Shown in pieces: positions 36,431 through 57,966 of a DNA stretch of 64,000 nucleotides. The notes beneath the pieces were generated by a model. It worked only from the letters and a program-made list of their open reading frames with translations, ran no database searches and was not told the DNA's origin. The stretch is from Pseudomonadota bacterium (lineage in GTDB: Bacteria > Pseudomonadota > Alphaproteobacteria > Sphingomonadales > Govanellaceae): positions 496,001-560,000 of the forward strand of contig QEVO01000001.1 of NCBI GenBank assembly GCA_003577275.1, written 5' to 3'. Each line of letters opens with the position of its first letter. The first letter of the stretch is position 1. The position numbers and the translations under genes were made by a program.

Positions 36431-37093
36431 ATGATCTTTATGCGCGCCTTAAGATACCTTTCGCTCTGCCTGGGAGTTGCGGCGGCGGGCTGCGCCACCT
36501 CGCCCACCCGCGAGTTGTTGGCAGATTTCGGCGATCAGACCACCGCCTGGTCGGAGATGGGCATCTGCGCCGGCTATGGCTGCACCACTTATTACAAGCT
36601 GGGGCTTGATGCGGCGGAGGCGGGGCGCATCGTGGCGGCCTATGGCGCGCCAGCGGCGTCGCCCGCCGACGAACGGCAAGCCATCCGCCGCGCCATCGCT
36701 GAGATCGAGATCATCGTTGGGCCAAAGACCGGCACCGCCGGCGACGAGCCAGGGGCGGCCATCATCAACTTCTCCCGCCGCGGCCAGATGGATTGCATCG
36801 ACGAGTCGTTCAACACCACCACCTATTTAAGGCTGATGGAAAAGAGCGGATTATTACGCTTTCACCGGGTGGGCGAGCCGCTGCGGCGGGGCTATTTCCT
36901 GGATCGCTGGCCGCACAACACGGCGACGATCACCGACACTGCCGATAACCGCCGCTACGTGGTCGATTCCTGGTTTCACGGCAACGGCGTGCCGCCGGAG
37001 ATCGTGCCAGCCGAAGAGTGGCTAAAGGGCTGGCGCCCTGAAACCCAATTGCCGGCGCGCGCCGGCGGCCAGACCGCGGCTATCTCTCAATAG
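36431..37093 (+). CDS. Putative lipoprotein, function unknown
   Basis: A 217-220 residue exported protein (ATG at 36431 or 36440). The N-terminus LRYLSLCLGVAAAGC is a lipoprotein signal with the lipid-bearing Cys in AAGC. The mature part has conserved-looking motifs: GICAGYGCTTYYKL, a MDCIDESFNTTTYL segment and RYVVDSWFHGNG. A Cys, His and Asp in that order could form a papain/transglutaminase-like active site, but I cannot confirm this. It converges on the XRE repressor gene with a 7-bp overlap and is probably a host gene marking the left edge of the phage-like cluster. Confidence 0.75.
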   Translation: MIFMRALRYLSLCLGVAAAGCATSPTRELLADFGDQTTAWSEMGICAGYGCTTYYKLGLDAAEAGRIVAAYGAPAASPADERQAIRRAIAEIEIIVGPKTGTAGDEPGAAIINFSRRGQMDCIDESFNTTTYLRLMEKSGLLRFHRVGEPLRRGYFLDRWPHNTATITDTADNRRYVVDSWFHGNGVPPEIVPAEEWLKGWRPETQLPARAGGQTAAISQ

Positions 37094-37656
37094 CGGCGGA
37101 TCAGCATGGCGCGCCGCGCCAGCGAGCGTAGGGCGGCGTCGTAGGCCACGGCGGCGGCATCGCCCAGGCCAACCACGGTGTAGCGCCCCGGCGCTGTCCC
37201 CGCCAGCAACCGACCGTAGAGCCGCCGCCCGCCGTCCAGTTCGGCCAGACATTCCTTGCCCACGAGGCGCGCCGCTTCCGCCACCGGCACCGGCAGGCAG
37301 ATCACCGTGTCGCCGACCTGAAAGTCGGCGGTGGGCTGGGCAATTTTCAACGCCACGGCGCCCGCGCCCGGAGGATGGAGCGACAATGTTTCACCGTCGG
37401 CGGGGATGATTTCCCCGCCGGTCGATAAAGTGCCAGCGAAAGGCACCGGGCCATCGCCGTCCATCGGCATCAGCTCGGCCACCGAGCACTGCAGCGCCGT
37501 GGCGATCTTTTCCAGCCAGTCGAGGGTGACCTTGCGGCTCCCGGTTTCAAGCCGGCCAATGGTCTGCGCCGTGGTCGGCTGGGGCCGGATTAGCGCGGCA
37601 ACCTGATGAAGGGTCAGACCTTTTTGCTTGCGAATCTCGCGTATTTTATTGTGCAT
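37087..37656 (-). CDS. XRE-family repressor with S24-like C-terminal domain lacking catalytic serine
   Basis: A 189-residue phage-type repressor. Residues 3-62 are an XRE helix-turn-helix (IRKQKGLTLHQVAALI, TAQTIGRLETGSRKVT). The C-terminal part (about 90-160) has the LexA/CI-like beta fold (ALKIAQPTADFQVGDTVIC, LVGKECLAELDGGRRLYGRL), but the position of the S24 nucleophile (GDSM in LexA) reads AQPT, so RecA-stimulated self-cleavage is not expected. It is divergent from the DUF6456 gene, with ACCAA/TTGGT sites in the gap and AGAGG before the ATG. By position it resembles RogA, which represses the GTA activators in Caulobacter crescentus; orthology is not proven. Confidence 0.85.
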   Translation of the reverse strand: MHNKIREIRKQKGLTLHQVAALIRPQPTTAQTIGRLETGSRKVTLDWLEKIATALQCSVAELMPMDGDGPVPFAGTLSTGGEIIPADGETLSLHPPGAGAVALKIAQPTADFQVGDTVICLPVPVAEAARLVGKECLAELDGGRRLYGRLLAGTAPGRYTVVGLGDAAAVAYDAALRSLARRAMLIRRY

Positions 37657-37718: not shown

Positions 37719-37742
37719 ATATAACCAATATGGAAAAAATTA

Positions 37743-37771
37743 TTGACAGCCCAAAGTTTTCAATGATAGCT
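37743..37771 (+). promoter_or_regulatory. Candidate promoter for the DUF6456 gene
   Basis: TTGACA (37743-37748) is a perfect -35. A poor -10 (GATAGC or ATAGCT, 37765-37771) follows after 16-17 bp. A strong -35 with a weak -10 suggests a promoter needing help or relief from repression. Confidence 0.45.
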
Positions 37772-37780
37772 GCAAAATGT

Positions 37781-37791
37781 ACCAATTTGGT
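37781..37791. promoter_or_regulatory. ACCAA-T-TTGGT palindrome just upstream of the DUF6456 gene
   Basis: ACCAATTTGGT is a perfect odd palindrome between the candidate promoter and the GGAGG site. A bound repressor here would block transcription of the DUF6456 gene. Confidence 0.55.
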
Positions 37792-37809
37792 GAATTTATG
37801 GAGGCGGAC

Positions 37810-38616
37810 ATGCGGCAAAATACAGCGGTCGATACCCGGAGCTCGGCGGAGCCCGTCAGCAGGCGGGCGGCGCGACTCCTGCTGCGGCTGAGCGCCGGCG
37901 AGACGGTCCATGCCACTGACGACGGTGTTTTCTTCGGCGGCGAAGACGTGACGGCGGAGGTGGCGGCGCTGATCGCCCATGATCTGGCGGCGCGGGACCG
38001 TCGGGGCGGCGTGCGGCTGACCGCGCCCGGCGCCGGTTACGCCAAGCGCCTGGCCGCGCGCTCGGCCCTCCGCCGCGCCGGTCGGCAGGGGGATGCAGCA
38101 GCGCTGGCGGTGATTGCGCCGTATCGCGATCAACATCAAGACATCGATATCATGATGGCGTCCGATGGCGACAAAGTCGCAGAACGGCGCTTTTTCAACC
38201 ATCGGGAATGCCCGCTGGCTTGGCTGCGCCGGCGTCGCGACCGGGCTGGCCGGCCGCTCATCGCCGACCGCCAGTTCGAGGCCGGCATGCGCTTGCGTAA
38301 CGACTTCGAGCGCGGCGGTCTATCGCCGCGGGTCACCGCCTCCTGGAGCGCGCTGCCCGTGGGCCGCGCCGGGGCGGCAAGCCGGCGCGGCGGCCTCGAT
38401 CCCAGCGACAGTCAGATGAGCGCCCGCCAGCGCTTCCGCCGCGCCGTCACCGCTCTGGGGCCGGGCCTTGCCGAGGTGGCGATCCGCACCTGCTGCGCTT
38501 ATGAGGGGCTGGAAGCGGTAGAGAAGAGCCTGGACTGGCCGGCGCGCTCGGGCAAGGTGGTGTTGAGCTTGGCTTTATCTCGGCTGGCCGATTATTACGG
38601 AATTGGAAAAAAATAA
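37810..38616 (+). CDS. DUF6456 protein, candidate GTA activator/antiterminator
   Basis: A 268-residue protein. The N-terminal region (about 15-100) looks like a winged helix. The DUF6456 domain spans 133-266: ECPLAWLRRRRDRAGRPLI, LRNDFERGGLSPRVTASWS, ALGPGLAEVAIRTCCAYEGL and WPARSGKVVLSLALSRLADYYG. The ATG at 37810 has GGAGG five bases upstream; an ATG at 37777 has none. The C-terminal part is of the kind compared with sigma region 4 in GafA. My recollection is that DUF6456 belongs to the GafA/GafZ lineage, but I cannot search. Its stop codon lies inside the operator of the structural promoter, so it is tightly linked to the genes it would control. Confidence 0.8.
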   Translation: MRQNTAVDTRSSAEPVSRRAARLLLRLSAGETVHATDDGVFFGGEDVTAEVAALIAHDLAARDRRGGVRLTAPGAGYAKRLAARSALRRAGRQGDAAALAVIAPYRDQHQDIDIMMASDGDKVAERRFFNHRECPLAWLRRRRDRAGRPLIADRQFEAGMRLRNDFERGGLSPRVTASWSALPVGRAGAASRRGGLDPSDSQMSARQRFRRAVTALGPGLAEVAIRTCCAYEGLEAVEKSLDWPARSGKVVLSLALSRLADYYGIGKK

Positions 38617-38633
38617 CCAAATAGGTTATTTTT
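38609..38633. promoter_or_regulatory. Perfect 10-bp inverted repeat beside the structural-gene promoter
   Basis: AAAAATAACC (38609-38618), five bases AAATA, GGTTATTTTT (38624-38633). The arms are exact reverse complements. The left arm contains the DUF6456 stop codon, and the right arm ends 3 bp before the -35. A further GGTTAT at 38657-38662 overlaps the -10, 33 bp from the right arm. The 8-mer ATAACCAA is shared with 37721-37728. The U-rich right arm could also weakly terminate the DUF6456 transcript. Confidence 0.65.
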
Positions 38634-38636
38634 ATA

Positions 38637-38665
38637 TTGACTAATAAAACGCTCATGGTTATACT
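38637..38665 (+). promoter_or_regulatory. Near-consensus sigma-70 promoter of the structural cluster
   Basis: TTGACT (38637-38642), a 17-bp spacer, TATACT (38660-38665): one mismatch to consensus in each hexamer. It is the best promoter in the window and points into the terminase genes, with a leader of about 110 bases. Confidence 0.75.
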
Positions 38666-38716
38666 TTAGTCAAGATCGAGAAAAAGGTTCGCAGGCGCCA
38701 TCGCGCCGATGATACG

Positions 38717-38750
38717 AAAGGCCGCTCCCGCTAGAGAGCGGCCTTTTGCT
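38717..38750 (+). terminator. Intrinsic terminator in the leader of the structural cluster (attenuator)
   Basis: AAAGGCCGCTC (38717-38727) and GAGCGGCCTTT (38736-38746) pair perfectly over 11 bp around an eight-base loop, and the downstream arm runs into TTTT. It lies between the promoter at 38637 and the terS start at 38781, so it would stop transcription before the first structural gene unless bypassed. Confidence 0.8.
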
Positions 38751-38780
38751 GTTGTGCGCCTTGAGTTTGATGAGGATGGA

Positions 38781-39239
38781 ATGGCGAAGGCCACGAGCTG
38801 GACGCCGCGCAAGCGCGGCCAATTCCTCAGCGCGCTGCGCAAAACCGGCAATGTCACGGCGGCGGCCGAGGCGGCGGGACTGTCGCGCAGCCAGGCCTAT
38901 CAGCTGCGGCGCAGCGACGACGGTTTTCGCCAGGATTGGGACGACGCTTTGCAGGCGGCGATCGATGATCTGGAAGAGGAGCTGCGGCGCCGCGCGCTGC
39001 ACGGCGTCGAGCAGCCGATCTACTATGGCGGCAAGGAATGCGGCCGGGTGCGGACCTATAACGATGCCCTGGGGATGTTCTTGTTGCGCGCCCGCCGCCG
39101 GGAGCTGTTCGACAAAGCGGGCGAGGACGGATCGGCGGTCTCCATCGACGCCTCGCCGCTGGCCGAGATCCAAGAACGCTTGAAGCGCCTGCGCGCCCGT
39201 CAAGCCAAGGGCCGCAAGTCGGATGGCGATAAGCCGTGA
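38781..39239 (+). CDS. Terminase small subunit (GTA g1-like)
   Basis: A 152-residue DNA-recognition component of the packaging motor. The N-terminal helix-turn-helix (SALRKTGNVTAAAEAAGLSR, SQAYQLRR) is typical of small terminases. The middle and C-terminal helices (DLEEELRRRALHG, FLLRARRRELFDKAG) form the oligomer. The start at 38781 (MAKATSW) has GAGGA upstream; a longer frame to 38709 would run through the attenuator hairpin. Its TGA overlaps the GTG of terL. Confidence 0.88.
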   Translation: MAKATSWTPRKRGQFLSALRKTGNVTAAAEAAGLSRSQAYQLRRSDDGFRQDWDDALQAAIDDLEEELRRRALHGVEQPIYYGGKECGRVRTYNDALGMFLLRARRRELFDKAGEDGSAVSIDASPLAEIQERLKRLRARQAKGRKSDGDKP

Positions 39240-40564
39240 CCGGCGATGAGGAGGGGCAACGCTCGCTGGCCGAAGTCATGGCCGCTCTGCCGACGGGCGA
39301 TGAAGCGGATATCCTGGGCGCGCTGAAGGTCGCCGACCTTACGGAGCTTCTTTATGAGTGGCGGTTCTGGGCCCGACCGCAGCAACTGCCGCCGCCGGGA
39401 GAATGGGCAACCTGGCTCATTCTGGCCGGCCGCGGCTTCGGCAAGACCCGCACCGGGGCGGAGTGGGTGCGCGGCCTGGCGGAACACGCCGGCCCCGGTT
39501 TTCGCATCGCGTTGGTGGGAGAGACGGCGGTCGATGTGCGGCAGGTGATGGTGGAGGGCGAATCCGGTCTCCTGCCCTGCGCCCGGCCGGACTTCAGGCC
39601 CCGCTTCGAACCGTCGAAGCGCTGCCTCACCTGGCCCCAGGGGGCGCAGGCTTTTCTCTACTCGGCGGACGATCCGGAGCAATTACGCGGACCGCAGCAT
39701 CATGTGGCTTGGTGCGACGAGCTGGCGAAATGGCGGCGCGCCGGGGAGACGTGGAGCAACTTGCAACTGGGCCTGCGTCTTGGCGAGCGGCCGCAAGTAG
39801 TGGTGACGACGACGCCCCGGCCCCTGAGGCTGCTGAAAGACTTGCTCGCCGATCCGATGACGGTGGTGACCCGCGGCTCGACCTACGACAACCGCGGCAA
39901 TCTGCCGTCGGCTTTTTTCCGGCAAGTGGTGGAAAAGTATGCCGGCACGCGGCTGGGCCGGCAGGAGATCGAGGCCGAAATTCTGGAGGATACCCCGGGC
40001 GCGCTGTGGACGCGGGCCTTGTTGCGGGCCTGTCGCGCCACCGCTGCGCCGGTCATGCGCCGGGTGGTGGTGGGCGTCGATCCGCCGGTGACCGGCGGTG
40101 AGAAGGCCGACGCCTGCGGCATCGTGGTGGCCGGCGAGGGCGAGGACGGCCGCTATTACGTGCTGGAGGATCGCACCACGGTGGGAGCCAGCGTCCACGG
40201 CTGGGCGCGGGCGGCGGTCGCCGCCTATCACGACCATGAAGCCGACCGGCTGGTGGCGGAGGTGAACAATGGCGGCGATCTGGTGGCCGCCGTCATTCGC
40301 CAGGTTGATCCAACCATCAGCTATCGCGCGGTGCGGGCCAGCCGCGGCAAATGGGCGCGCGCCGAACCCATCGCCGCCCTTTATGAACAGGGCCGGGTCA
40401 GCCACCTAGCGGCCATGCCGGCGCTGGAGGATCAGATGGCCAGTTACGCGCCGGGCGGGGATATGGCCTATGGCAGCCCGGACCGGTTGGACGCCCTGGT
40501 GTGGGCGCTGAGCGAATTGGCGCTCGGGATGAGCGCCAATCCGCGATTACGAACGATCGGTTAA
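39236..40564 (+). CDS. Terminase large subunit (GTA g2-like)
   Basis: A 442-residue packaging motor with an N-terminal ATPase and C-terminal nuclease. Walker A LAGRGFGKT is at 63-71 and Walker B-like VAWCDELAKW follows. The RNase H-fold nuclease acidic residues sit in VVVGVDPPVTG, LVAEVNNGGD and SPDRLDALVWAL. In GTAs this motor packages host DNA headful-wise. All motifs are intact. It starts with GTG in a GTGA overlap with terS and ends 8 bp before a convergent passenger gene. Confidence 0.95.
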   Translation: MTGDEEGQRSLAEVMAALPTGDEADILGALKVADLTELLYEWRFWARPQQLPPPGEWATWLILAGRGFGKTRTGAEWVRGLAEHAGPGFRIALVGETAVDVRQVMVEGESGLLPCARPDFRPRFEPSKRCLTWPQGAQAFLYSADDPEQLRGPQHHVAWCDELAKWRRAGETWSNLQLGLRLGERPQVVVTTTPRPLRLLKDLLADPMTVVTRGSTYDNRGNLPSAFFRQVVEKYAGTRLGRQEIEAEILEDTPGALWTRALLRACRATAAPVMRRVVVGVDPPVTGGEKADACGIVVAGEGEDGRYYVLEDRTTVGASVHGWARAAVAAYHDHEADRLVAEVNNGGDLVAAVIRQVDPTISYRAVRASRGKWARAEPIAALYEQGRVSHLAAMPALEDQMASYAPGGDMAYGSPDRLDALVWALSELALGMSANPRLRTIG

Positions 40565-40572
40565 GCTCTAAG

Positions 40573-40923
40573 TTATTGAGCGCGCGCTGCTTTATAGGCG
40601 CGAATGGCCTCATTGAATTCGTTGCCCGTCGCCACTTCGGCATCCACCGCCGCGTTATAGCGCTCGACAAAGCTTTTTTGCATATCGGCCGTCAGCTGTT
40701 CCTTCGGCACCAAGGCTTCCTGGGCCTGCAGGCAATTGCGAAACGTCTCGCTATCGGCGAGGAATTTTTTGACCGCGCTCTGGGCAGCGATCATATCCTC
40801 CTGGGTGGCGGCGGCGCCGCTGGGGATGGCCGGCGCCGGCGGCCGGGTGCAATCGTCGGCCAAGGCGCTGCCGGCACTGAGCGCCAAGGTCATGGTAAAG
40901 GCAATGGTTACAATAGATTTCAT
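40573..40923 (-). CDS. Small secreted protein, antisense passenger in the cluster
   Basis: A 116-residue protein with a clear signal peptide (MKSIVTIAFTMTLALSAGSA, cleaved near ALADD). The mature form has two Cys (DDCTRP and FRNCLQ) and is helical and charged. Similar small secreted proteins are widespread in Alphaproteobacteria, but I know of no function. The start at 40923 has GGAGA upstream, and a perfect TATAAT lies about 60 bp upstream on the same strand, so it is expressed independently. It sits on the opposite strand between terL and portal, where the R. capsulatus GTA has nothing. Confidence 0.8.
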   Translation of the reverse strand: MKSIVTIAFTMTLALSAGSALADDCTRPPAPAIPSGAAATQEDMIAAQSAVKKFLADSETFRNCLQAQEALVPKEQLTADMQKSFVERYNAAVDAEVATGNEFNEAIRAYKAARAQ

Positions 40924-40983
40924 GAAGCAACGTCTCCAAAGAGCAAACCCTCGACCGACCGGGGTCGGCCGCAACGGAGGCGG

Positions 40984-40989
40984 ATTATA
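40984..40989 (-). promoter_or_regulatory. TATAAT -10 element for the antisense secreted protein
   Basis: On the minus strand the hexamer reads TATAAT, with no convincing -35 at 16-18 bp. The start codon is about 60 bp downstream. Confidence 0.45.
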
Positions 40990-41104
40990 AACTGACGGGC
41001 CGGCCAAAGGCTAGCCCGTCACGATTCCATTCATCACCACCAAGTTCGACGGCATTCGGGCTGAGGAGCCACGCTTCCGGCTCGAACGGCGGCGGCGAGG
41101 GCAT
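40985..41104 (-). pseudogene. Possible gene remnant (39 codons)
   Basis: A minus-strand frame encodes MPSPPPFEPEAW...GRPVSL followed by TAA. Its amino-acid composition looks protein-like, and the frame remains open upstream past 41190. It has no ribosome-binding site of note and its stop overlaps the -10 of the neighbouring gene. It could be the tail of a decayed gene that arrived with the passenger insertion. Confidence 0.25.
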
Positions 41105-41197: not shown

Positions 41198-42418
41198 ATG
41201 AGTTCATTCAGTGAGCGCGTAAAGCGCCTGTTTTGGCCAAGCGGCGCGCCGATCGAGGCCAAGCGAAGCGCCGTCGCCGGCCTCTTGGGCAGCGAATTTT
41301 CCACCTGGGTCGGAACGGCGGGGCCGCGCTGGACCAGCCGCAATTATCGCCGGCTGGCCGAGGAGGGCTATCGCAAGAACGTCATCGTCCACCGCTGTGT
41401 GCGGCTGATCGCCGAAAGCGCCGCCTCGGTGCCGTGGCGGCTGACCCGCAACGGCAAGGCCATCGACCGTCACCCGCTGCTTGACCTCCTCAATCGCCCC
41501 AACCCGATGGAAGCCGGCAAGGCGCTGTTTGAAAATTTCTATGCCTTCTTAAGCATCGCCGGCGACAGCTATCTGGAGATGGTGACTGCCGCCGACGGCG
41601 CGCCCGCCGAGCTATACGTGCTGCGGCCCGATCGTATGAAAGTTATTCCCGGTCCCAGCGGCTGGCCGCGCGCCTATCGCTATGAGGCCGGCGGCCAGGT
41701 CCACGATTTCGCGGTCGATCAGCTGACCGGCCAGTCGGCGGTTTTGCATATGAAAACCTTCAACCCGCTGGACGAGACTTACGGAATGTCGCCCCTGGAA
41801 GCCGCCGCCTTCGGCATCGACATTCATAATGCGGCCAGCGGCTGGAACAAGGCGCTGTTCGACAACGCCGCCCGGCCATCGGGCGCGCTGGTCTACGAAC
41901 CGGGCGACGCCGGCCACTTGAGCGATGAGCAATTCGCCCGGCTGAAAGAAGAGCTTGCCGATACCTACCAGGGTGCGCTCAATGCCGGCCGCCCCATGCT
42001 GTTGGAAGGCGGCTTGAAATGGCAGCCGATGGCGTTCTCGCCCCAGGACATGGAGTTCGTCGAGGGTAAGCATGTGGCGTCCCGCGAGATCGCTCTGGCC
42101 TTTGGCGTGCCGCCGCTCCTTCTCAATATCCCCGGCGACAATACCTACGCCAACTACCAGGAAGCCAATCGCGCGCTGTGGCGGCTGACGCTGCTGCCGC
42201 TTCTGGAAAAGACGGTTTGCGCTCTTAATCACTGGCTGGTGGATGATTTCGGCGACGGCCTGGCGCTCGACATCGATCGCGACGCCATCTCGGCGCTGCA
42301 AGCGGAGCGCGCCGCCGCCTGGGAGCGGGTCGGCGCCGCCCGGTTTTTGACCATCAACGAAAAACGCCGGGCGGTGGGCCTGGAGCCGCTCCCCGGCGGC
42401 GACGTTCTAGTGTCCTGA
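41198..42418 (+). CDS. Phage portal protein, HK97 family (GTA g3-like)
   Basis: A 406-residue portal that forms the dodecameric DNA channel at one capsid vertex. Typical HK97-type motifs: NVIVHRCVRLIAESAASVPW, HPLLDLLNRPNPME, VLHMKTFNPLDETYGMSPLEAA and FGVPPLLLNIPGDNTYANYQEA. GAGAGG precedes the ATG. The last codons and the TGA lie within the left arm of a palindromic element (42407-42484), so the C-terminus VLVS comes from the insertion. The length is still about that of the RcGTA portal. Confidence 0.94.
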   Translation: MSSFSERVKRLFWPSGAPIEAKRSAVAGLLGSEFSTWVGTAGPRWTSRNYRRLAEEGYRKNVIVHRCVRLIAESAASVPWRLTRNGKAIDRHPLLDLLNRPNPMEAGKALFENFYAFLSIAGDSYLEMVTAADGAPAELYVLRPDRMKVIPGPSGWPRAYRYEAGGQVHDFAVDQLTGQSAVLHMKTFNPLDETYGMSPLEAAAFGIDIHNAASGWNKALFDNAARPSGALVYEPGDAGHLSDEQFARLKEELADTYQGALNAGRPMLLEGGLKWQPMAFSPQDMEFVEGKHVASREIALAFGVPPLLLNIPGDNTYANYQEANRALWRLTLLPLLEKTVCALNHWLVDDFGDGLALDIDRDAISALQAERAAAWERVGAARFLTINEKRRAVGLEPLPGGDVLVS

Positions 42419-42484
42419 TTTGCGAAATTCGCATGATTTCTATATCAGCGCTTAAGCGAATTTTGCAAATTGAAAGGACACTAG
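42407..42484 (+). mobile_element. 78-bp CTAGTGTC-ended palindromic element, copy 1
   Basis: Left arm 42407-42432 (CTAGTGTCCTGATTTGCG...) and right arm 42456-42484 (...AAAGGACACTAG) are near-perfect inverted repeats with a 23-nt loop containing CTATATCAG (42440-42448). It has no coding capacity and ends in CTAG. It resembles a MITE or REP-type hairpin element. It provides the stop codon of the portal gene. Confidence 0.7.
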
Positions 42485-42498
42485 CAACCTATTGAATC

Positions 42499-42578
42499 CT
42501 AGTGTCGTTTTGGTTTTTGAAGTTCGTGTGAGCGGCCTATATCAGTCATGAAACGAACTTCAAAAACCACGACACTAG
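42499..42578 (+). mobile_element. 80-bp CTAGTGTC-ended palindromic element, copy 2
   Basis: Left arm 42499-42527 and right arm 42553-42578 pair almost perfectly (CTAGTGTCG... with ...CGACACTAG; inner arm TTTTTGAAGTTCGT). The 25-nt loop has CTATATCAG (42537-42545), as in copy 1, in the same orientation. The inner arms differ in sequence from copy 1, so the two are diverged relatives and not a recent duplication. Fourteen bases separate them. Confidence 0.7.
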
Positions 42579-42784
42579 TGGATGCGCCGCCCGCTGTACC
42601 GAAATGACACAATTGTCTAAAAAAGGCACAGCGTCGCTGGACAATAATGGGACGGCGGGCGGGACTTTAATTCAAAAAATAAGAAAAATCCGCGCAAATG
42701 CCGGCCAATCGGCACTTGGCACGGTTTCTGCTTTGATGAGGTCGAACGATGTTGCCAATGACAAAGACTTTCGGAGCGACGACC

Positions 42785-42967: not shown

Positions 42968-43012
42968 GACGGCGCCGCGCCGGACACCAGTTACCTTCGC
43001 GTCGCAAACTAG

Positions 43013-43041
43013 CGGCCTCTCCCCGGAGAGGCCGTTTTTTT
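43013..43041 (+). terminator. Strong intrinsic terminator inside the structural cluster
   Basis: CGGCCTCTCC and GGAGAGGCCG (43013-43034) form a 9-10 bp GC-rich stem followed by seven T residues (43035-43041). It stands between the portal region and the DUF6127 gene, upstream of protease, capsid and all tail genes. Confidence 0.85.
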
Positions 43042-43066
43042 ATCCATTGATCGCAGCCAACAGACA

Positions 43067-49847: not shown

Positions 49848-50061
49848 CTCCGACACGGCGGCGCGGATGGATTGGGCGGCGGCGGCAGGCGTGGCCTTGA
49901 CGCGGCTCGGCTGGCCGCCGCCGGTGTTCTGGGCGGCGACGCCGGCGGAACTGCGGCTGGCCTTAAAAGCCCTGACGATCACGCAGGGGATATCACCGCC
50001 GCTCGGCCGGCGTGAGCTTGAGACGCTGCGTCGCCGCTTCCCCGATCGCGTTTCGGATTAA
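49834..50061 (+). CDS. Phage tail assembly chaperone (rcc01693/gp10.1-like)
   Basis: A 75-residue protein of the TIGR02216-type family seen in GTAs: AAAAGVALTRLGWPPPVFWA, ELRLALKALTIT and the C-terminal PLGRRELETLRRRFPD. It overlaps gp10 by 14 bp and ends 22 bp before the tape measure gene. Confidence 0.86.
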   Translation: MTAADSDTAARMDWAAAAGVALTRLGWPPPVFWAATPAELRLALKALTITQGISPPLGRRELETLRRRFPDRVSD

Positions 50062-50083
50062 TCAACCCAAGCAGGATATTGTC

Positions 50084-50713
50084 ATGGCGGAGACCGTGCT
50101 TGATAGCCTCGTCGTCAAGATCGAGGCCGATACCCGCGGCCTGGAGGCGGGAGTCAGCCGCACCACCGCCAGCCTGCAAGGGCTCGAAACCTTCGCCGGC
50201 CGCGCCCACGGCGCCACGCTTGAGCTTGGCGGCATCGCCGGCGGCATGGCCAATGAACTTGGCGCAGCCGCCGAGCGGGCCAGCGATCGCATGGCCGGCG
50301 CGTTCGCCCGCATGGCGCGCAGCGGCCGGTTGTCGTTTGAAGGCTTGCGCGACGCGGCGCTGGCGGCCATCGCCGAGATCGTCGCCAACCTGCTATCGGT
50401 GGGCATTAGAAATATTTTCGGCAGCGTGTTTTCCACGGTGCTGCTACCGGGGCGCGCCGGCGGCGGCGCGGTTTCGCCGGCGCAAGCCTATGTGGTGGGC
50501 GAGCGCGGCCCCGAGCTGTTCGTGCCGCAAGTTGCAGGGCGCATCACCGCGCCCTCTGCCGCGGCGCAGTTTCGTGAACCGCCGTCGCGCGGCCGCGCCG
50601 CTATCACCATCAACGTGCAAGGCGCGGGCGATGGCGAAGCCTTGCGGCAAAGCTCGTCGCAGGTGGCGCTGGCGGTTCGCCGCGCCCTCATGCGCGCCGA
50701 GCGGAGTTTATAG
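50084..50713 (+). CDS. Short tail tape measure protein (GTA g11-like)
   Basis: A 209-residue tape measure, far shorter than in ordinary siphophages (often 700-1500) but like the ~220-residue RcGTA g11, predicting a very short tail. It has VLDSLVVKIEADTRGLEAGV, a helical middle (AERASDRMAGAFARMARSGR, LSVGIRNIFGSVFS) and the conserved AYVVGERGPELFVPQVAGR end. The start at 50084 has AGGAT; an earlier in-frame ATG overlaps gp10.1. Confidence 0.9.
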   Translation: MAETVLDSLVVKIEADTRGLEAGVSRTTASLQGLETFAGRAHGATLELGGIAGGMANELGAAAERASDRMAGAFARMARSGRLSFEGLRDAALAAIAEIVANLLSVGIRNIFGSVFSTVLLPGRAGGGAVSPAQAYVVGERGPELFVPQVAGRITAPSAAAQFREPPSRGRAAITINVQGAGDGEALRQSSSQVALAVRRALMRAERSL

Positions 50714-57809: not shown

Positions 57810-57849
57810 CAGTCTTTTTTCCTTTCCATCCATTGTCCCGCCTGTCCCG

Positions 57850-57878
57850 CCCCGACACGATAAGTGTCGGGGTTTTTT
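57850..57878 (+). terminator. Intrinsic terminator at the end of the GTA-like cluster
   Basis: CCCCGACAC, loop GATAA, GTGTCGGGG, then TTTTTT (57873-57878). A perfect 9-bp stem 40 bp after the last structural gene. Confidence 0.92.
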
Positions 57879-57966
57879 ACATTTTTCGGCTTCCATCTCG
57901 CCATCCAATCGCCAGCCGCTTGTAATCAAAGCAAATACCTTGGCTGGCCCAACTTTTGCTTGTACG

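Follow-up and report, generated by a model that had tools for sequence, protein, structure and literature searches.

The DNA ahead of the terminase small subunit gene (terS) in the window, that is, in the whole stretch of 64,000 nucleotides analysed here, combines a sigma-70-type promoter, a putative leader terminator and an adjacent gene for a DUF6456 protein. Comparison with related clusters makes it quite probable that this site is an RcGTA-type late-promoter control module working like lambda pR'-tR', by processive antitermination of the Q/AlpA/GafZ type. The genes that follow form an RcGTA-type gene transfer agent (GTA), with homologues of the RcGTA genes in order from head to tail: small and large terminase subunits, an HK97-type portal, an S78 protease, capsid and connectors, as well as tail tube, tape measure, hub proteins and an Rcc01698-type protein (Rcc01698_C). 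The large terminase gene terL (39236-40564, plus strand) encodes Terminase_6N/6C, with relatives at 52-65% identity, and a putative terminator lies at the end of the cluster (57849-57881, plus strand). The anatomy of this DNA, its conservation and the family of the regulatory protein are direct observations.

The terS promoter (38637-38665, plus strand) comprises a -35 box TTGACT (38637-38642), a 17-nt spacer and a -10 box TATACT (38660-38665). It matches the consensus at 10 of 12 positions and is the sole sigma-70-type match between 36000 and 42000, a region that yields a mean of 1.5 matches when shuffled. As a single pattern match it is not significant; what matters is its conservation, and the same layout is repeated in relatives. 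A putative intrinsic terminator (38717-38747, plus strand) begins 52 nt past the -10 box. Its arms, AAAGGCCGCTC (38717-38727) and GAGCGGCCTTT (38736-38746), are fully complementary and form an 11-bp stem with an 8-nt loop; the fourth T of the TTTT tract is at 38747 and is followed by GCTG. The predicted fold has an energy of -24.4 kcal/mol (z = -5.3), a stability equalled in none of 200 shuffles, and a scan of the leader found a hairpin as good in 0 of 100 shuffles. Perfect GC-rich stems of at least 10 bp beside a T-run occur at just four sites in the 64 kb. A sister genome of the same genus retains the promoter, the start region and the two arms of the stem, with divergence confined to the loop and to the leader in between. 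Termination in the leader may be partial, because the U-tract is short (4 T in the window, 3 T in the sister genome). From the end of the hairpin, 34 bp lead to the ATG of terS, the first structural gene (38781-39239, plus strand; phrog_4044 terminase small subunit, E = 2e-32), which has a GAGG at 38772. An alternative longer terS frame from 38709 is without a ribosome-binding site and would cross the hairpin. The first-pass annotation had placed a promoter and then a perfect 11-bp hairpin ahead of terS, and its coordinates coincide with ours.

Leader terminators are a recurrent feature of the order to which the window belongs. A search for TerL picked out 47 of 61 genomes, and terS could be located in the terL-upstream DNA of every one of these 47. 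A leader terminator was called when the stretch between promoter and terS contained a hairpin that folds at -10 kcal/mol or lower and has a U-tract. Of the 47 GTA clusters, 32 have such a structure; dinucleotide shuffles predict 10.1, and the numbers for the reverse strand and for an upstream control are 15 and 8 (P about 2e-14 if clusters are taken as independent, a value that overstates independence since clusters are related). The sequence of the hairpin varies between families and its location is kept. A few compensatory pairs were seen in Rhodobacterales and Sphingomonad leader hairpins, in uncertain alignments whose covariation terms are near zero. No terminator was recognised in 15 of the 47 leaders; families f3 and f7 are without one, as are some clusters of f2, f5 and f6.

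A further putative intrinsic terminator lies within the operon, in the gap between the portal and protease genes (43012-43042, plus strand; -18.8 kcal/mol, six T past the stem). The sister genome has exactly the same sequence here, and the relative G003 has an unlike hairpin with a T-run at a comparable place. By analogy, this internal terminator parallels terGTA of Caulobacter. Since it is strong and in the sense orientation, polymerase would have to resist termination if it is to transcribe as far as the capsid and tail genes.

We then searched for the promoter layout across Alphaproteobacteria with a 60-column matrix that extends from the -35 box to about +22 and was trained on the window's order alone. 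The class sample (TerL in 38 of 40 genomes reached via named records, and in 82 of the 289 genomes surveyed for the class) yielded 80 extra upstream regions, a few of them from Sphingomonad genomes of the same order. Of these regions, 29 scored above 14 bits, the top reverse-strand score being 12.6. Iteration of the matrix raised the number to 36. With the 35 training loci, the final set numbers 71 of the 127 clusters compared in Alphaproteobacteria, which share a module of fixed layout consisting of -35 box, spacer ACGCT, -10 box and start-site motif. Represented in the set are, among others, Bradyrhizobiaceae, Methylocystis, Pseudolabrys, Jannaschia, Nioella and Roseicyclus. Leader terminators were recognised in 18 of the 36 extra members, compared with 7.7 expected, and not in the other 18; many Rhizobiales are without a recognised one. 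In Rhodobacterales they are present in 9 of 10 leaders, mostly beginning 10-20 nt past the start, and gafA is located elsewhere in the genome. The published GafZ element of C. crescentus had no copy in the family searched. Two GTA clusters of other alphaproteobacterial families, L226 and L237, differ in their promoter, and no start-site motif was recognised in either; in both, a hairpin with a T-run stands nearly at the predicted start, ahead of terS, and is possibly another form of leader control.

Two elements of this module were absent from the first-pass annotation and, together with the internal terminator, give the mechanism its specificity. The spacer element ACGCT (38649-38653, plus strand), the proposed loading site of the DUF6456 protein, is half of AGCGTnACGCT. 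Across the 71 clusters its core is conserved (C 89%, G 83%, T 89%), with the full form in many of them and only the half-site in the window. It occupies the place of the GafZ-binding element of Caulobacter and of the Q-binding and AlpA elements. The start-site motif CAAGATCGAGAAAAAGG (38671-38687, plus strand) corresponds to the conserved motif CATGCTCgagAATTGgG (CAtGcTC..aATTG), whose first hexamer is -10-like, resembles the lambda pR' pause element and may itself be a pause element. At lambda pR', a sigma-dependent pause element spans +1 to +6, changes at A+2 and T+6 disrupt it, and the pause occurs at about 16 nt (PMC4604602). Relative to the predicted start, A+2 is found in 86% and T+6 in 94% of 80 loci; the window keeps both, and not the AATTG. 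The start at 38672 (plus or minus 1) was predicted from the -10 box, so that the match to the pause element may be displaced by one position. The distance from the motif to the -10 box is fixed within 1 nt in 74 of the 80 loci. A leaderless peptide starting in CATGCTC was ruled out: many members have no ATG or reach a stop at once.

The DUF6456 gene, which would encode the GafZ-like antiterminator, lies just upstream (37777-38616, plus strand). Its product matches PF20057 with E = 1.1e-47 and 161.9 bits, above the family cutoff of 26.3, and its real start is probably the ATG at 37810, which has a GGAGG ahead. The protein can be aligned to a GafA-type protein over the C-terminal two-thirds of the latter; in a 408-aa GafA-type ORF of Jannaschia helgolandensis, the DUF6456 region is C-terminal, behind an extra GafY-type N-terminal domain. 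Because the window protein is colinear with the part of GafA that follows the GafY-like domain, it corresponds to GafZ. In a structural model, residues 209-275 resemble sigma region 4 (3vfz) with a TMt of 0.85, but with a Foldseek E above 0.5; such a fold in the last 65 residues would agree with the report on GafZ, the similarity being weak. A profile of 17 DUF6456 proteins retrieved no Q or AlpA chain among solved structures at E up to 1. A search for GafY with the short GafA N-terminal domain found none in the window's genome, which is 88.6% complete, and only marginal matches elsewhere in the order. With a single-protein query, DUF6456 matches were present in 30 of the 61 related genomes and not detected in those of families f4 and f8, whose antiterminator may be different or diverged. 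The loci of these two families (L130-L176) have family-specific spacers, TTGCACCC..CACCAT in f4 and AAGCGGGGTT in f8. A phage origin of DUF6456 was discarded: the sole 'phage' match, MW462191.1 (L257), is probably a mislabelled bacterial contig, a 103-kb freshwater sequence whose DNA-binding-protein/DUF6456 pair lies among genes of bacterial type, EvgS and protease II included.

Divergent from the DUF6456 gene is a gene for an XRE-family, perhaps RogA-like, repressor (37087-37656, minus strand; HTH_3, E = 3e-11). Of the 30 DUF6456 loci, 29 encode an XRE homologue on the other strand, an arrangement that by analogy is the one expected of a RogA-type repressor (PMC9632790). When a LexA/CI-like domain was sought in the C-terminal region of the XRE protein, no significant match was found. 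Putative repressor operators, assigned to neither strand, lie near both promoters. The perfect palindrome ATAACCAAATAGGTTAT (38613-38629), 7 bp upstream of the terS -35 box, has its only exact match in the 64 kb at this position; with up to 2 mismatches it occurs at nine sites in the window versus 2.5 expected. Related copies are situated between the XRE and DUF6456 genes, flanking the likely DUF6456 promoter: ATAACCAATATGG (37721-37735), with 2 mismatches to the 38613 site, upstream of that promoter (TTGACA at 37743), and TACCAATTTGGTGA (37780-37793), the sole exact match to TACCNNWTNGGTNA in the 64 kb, directly before the likely DUF6456 start codon. Most relatives have a palindrome in the equivalent position, those of f4 and f8 differing in sequence. 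Since an operator-like palindrome stands at the terS promoter and related copies between the XRE and DUF6456 genes, initiation is probably repressible or otherwise regulated. The earlier suggestion that transcription starts constitutively is thus not supported.

Taken together, these elements suggest the following sequence of events, in which termination, protein binding, pausing, readthrough and repression are predicted from the DNA. The XRE repressor, by binding next to the DUF6456 and terS promoters, would hold the system off. RNA polymerase would start at about 38672 and, when unmodified, halt at the leader hairpin and release an RNA of about 75 nt. Release of the repressor would allow the gene just upstream to produce the DUF6456 protein, which would bind the element between -35 and -10. 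The protein would join polymerase near the start, perhaps at a sigma-dependent pause caused by the start-site motif, and render it termination-resistant, and the modified polymerase would cross the leader and internal terminators of the 19-kb operon. The main proposal of the first-pass annotation, antitermination by a GafZ-like DUF6456 protein through the leader terminator, appears well supported by comparison and by the work on Caulobacter (PMC11150451), and its description of GafZ as an antiterminator agrees with the same publication.

The leader hairpin has also to be considered as a mere 3' terminator of the DUF6456 unit, whose position behind the terS promoter would be an accident. Between the end of DUF6456 (38616) and the hairpin there is no further GC-rich-stem terminator, and the hairpin would stop that transcript too. 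However, the leader terminator remains where DUF6456 is not the upstream neighbour, in 11 of 11 f4 clusters, 6 of 6 f8 clusters, half of f5 and the Rhodobacterales. Its presence in f4 and f8, where DUF6456 is not adjacent, argues that leader hairpins are not terminators of this gene, and we hold such an accident to be very improbable. Somewhat less improbable, though still unlikely, is control at initiation only, in which the XRE protein would act at 38613-38629, DUF6456 would be an activator, and the hairpin would be a 5'-UTR structure serving RNA stability or terS translation. Operator-like palindromes are indeed present, RogA directly represses gafYZ in Caulobacter (PMC9632790), and GafA and GafY are activators in Rhodobacter and Caulobacter, respectively. 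This scheme is difficult to reconcile with the GC-rich stems directly followed by T, often unrelated in sequence, that 32 of the 47 leaders have in the sense orientation and 15 in the reverse one, with an internal sense terminator in the operon, and with a close homologue, GafZ, that is an antiterminator.

The start-site motif could also act as RNA, either through nut/boxA-like recruitment of Nus factors or as part of a leader that is a riboswitch-type attenuator. The motif is transcribed, its TGCTC is reminiscent of how boxA begins, and GafZ was purified together with NusA, NusG and NusE (PMC11150451). Yet the CTTTA part of boxA is absent, the leader has no match in Rfam, and the motif sits at the predicted start in a register to the -10 box that varies by at most 1 nt in 74 of 80 loci, as for a DNA/sigma element. 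We give this reading the least credence.

Antitermination by GafZ has been demonstrated in Caulobacter, where the protein requires a site in the -35/-10 spacer, allows a fraction of the polymerase to read through terGTA and is also effective at rrnB T1 (PMC11150451). The window resembles this system in its DUF6456-type protein and GTA cluster, which are homologous, in a putative -35/-10 element and a putative terminator early in the operon, and perhaps in a LexA/CI-like repressor of the activator genes (PMC11150451). In Caulobacter, however, the terminator follows the first gene, with three 150-bp repeats, whereas in the window it is in the leader; gafYZ is unlinked there and the DUF6456 gene adjacent here (PMC11150451). 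RogA of Caulobacter does not bind the structural promoter there; the structural promoter of the window has an operator-like site, and this putative operator is unlike the Caulobacter GGAA-N4-TTCC. The -35 box of Caulobacter is a degenerate AATCAT that needs GafY and IHF, while that of the window is near consensus and no GafY was found; PgtaT given a consensus-like -35 is active without GafYZ (PMC11150451). With its consensus -35 box and no GafY found, the terS promoter should need no activator.

Like lambda and 21 Q at pR'-tR', the window has a proposed antiterminator gene beside the late promoter, a putative loading site in the -35/-10 spacer, a hexamer at +1 to +6 that looks like a -10 box and a putative intrinsic terminator in the leader, with structural genes downstream (PMC6606751, PMC4604602). 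In the profile search of solved structures, DUF6456 has no detectable sequence similarity to Q, and the pause in the window is only predicted. The P. aeruginosa AlpA/alpB/tB system has a -35/-10 element GGGACG-N5-GGTA, comparable to the consensus ACG-N6-GGTA here, and an intrinsic terminator immediately ahead of the first ORF (PMC7969949); AlpA is unrelated in sequence searches and controls lysis genes, not a GTA. The Rhodobacter capsulatus GafA has a DUF6456-containing C-terminal part that binds a fragment with -35, -10 and start, and controls a homologous structural cluster; it differs from the window protein in being fused to a GafY-type N-terminal domain and regulated by CtrA and GtaR (PMC9638019, PMC6363796).

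Antitermination in a GTA has been published for one species, Caulobacter, the authors only suggesting that Rhodobacter GafA might share it (PMC11150451). In the literature searched, which left out most subscription papers, a leader terminator or start-site motif was described for no GTA. We give about even chances to the broader idea that RcGTA-family GTAs across Alphaproteobacteria have one ancestral Q-type late-promoter module, with a DUF6456 loading site in the -35/-10 spacer, a promoter-proximal sigma pause element at the start and terminators either in the leader or within the operon. If so, Rhodobacter GafA would also be an antiterminator, and activation by GafY and IHF in Caulobacter would be a later addition after loss of the -35 box. 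With the conserved module, a mechanism shared by GafA and GafZ can be put to a direct test in many genera. The module identifies spacer element, start-site motif and leader terminator as the cis elements for mutation, and it offers compact natural promoter-terminator pairs for studying the effects of DUF6456 on RNA polymerase. If the mechanism holds, these domesticated particles would have retained a phage-style late-gene switch long after other phage functions were lost.

Some features of the operon stand apart from this control region. A minus-strand frame without a Pfam match (40573-41007) lies between terL and the portal gene in an otherwise co-directional operon, and its terminator region is also found in the sister genome. 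The portal/protease gap contains two neighbouring repeat-like elements (42410-42590) with ends CTAGTGTC and GACACTAG, one of which has 17-nt perfect inverted arms (42511-42527 and 42553-42569); they look like small non-autonomous insertions. Finally, the tape-measure-like protein (50012-50710) has 233 aa, which is short for an RcGTA-type cluster.
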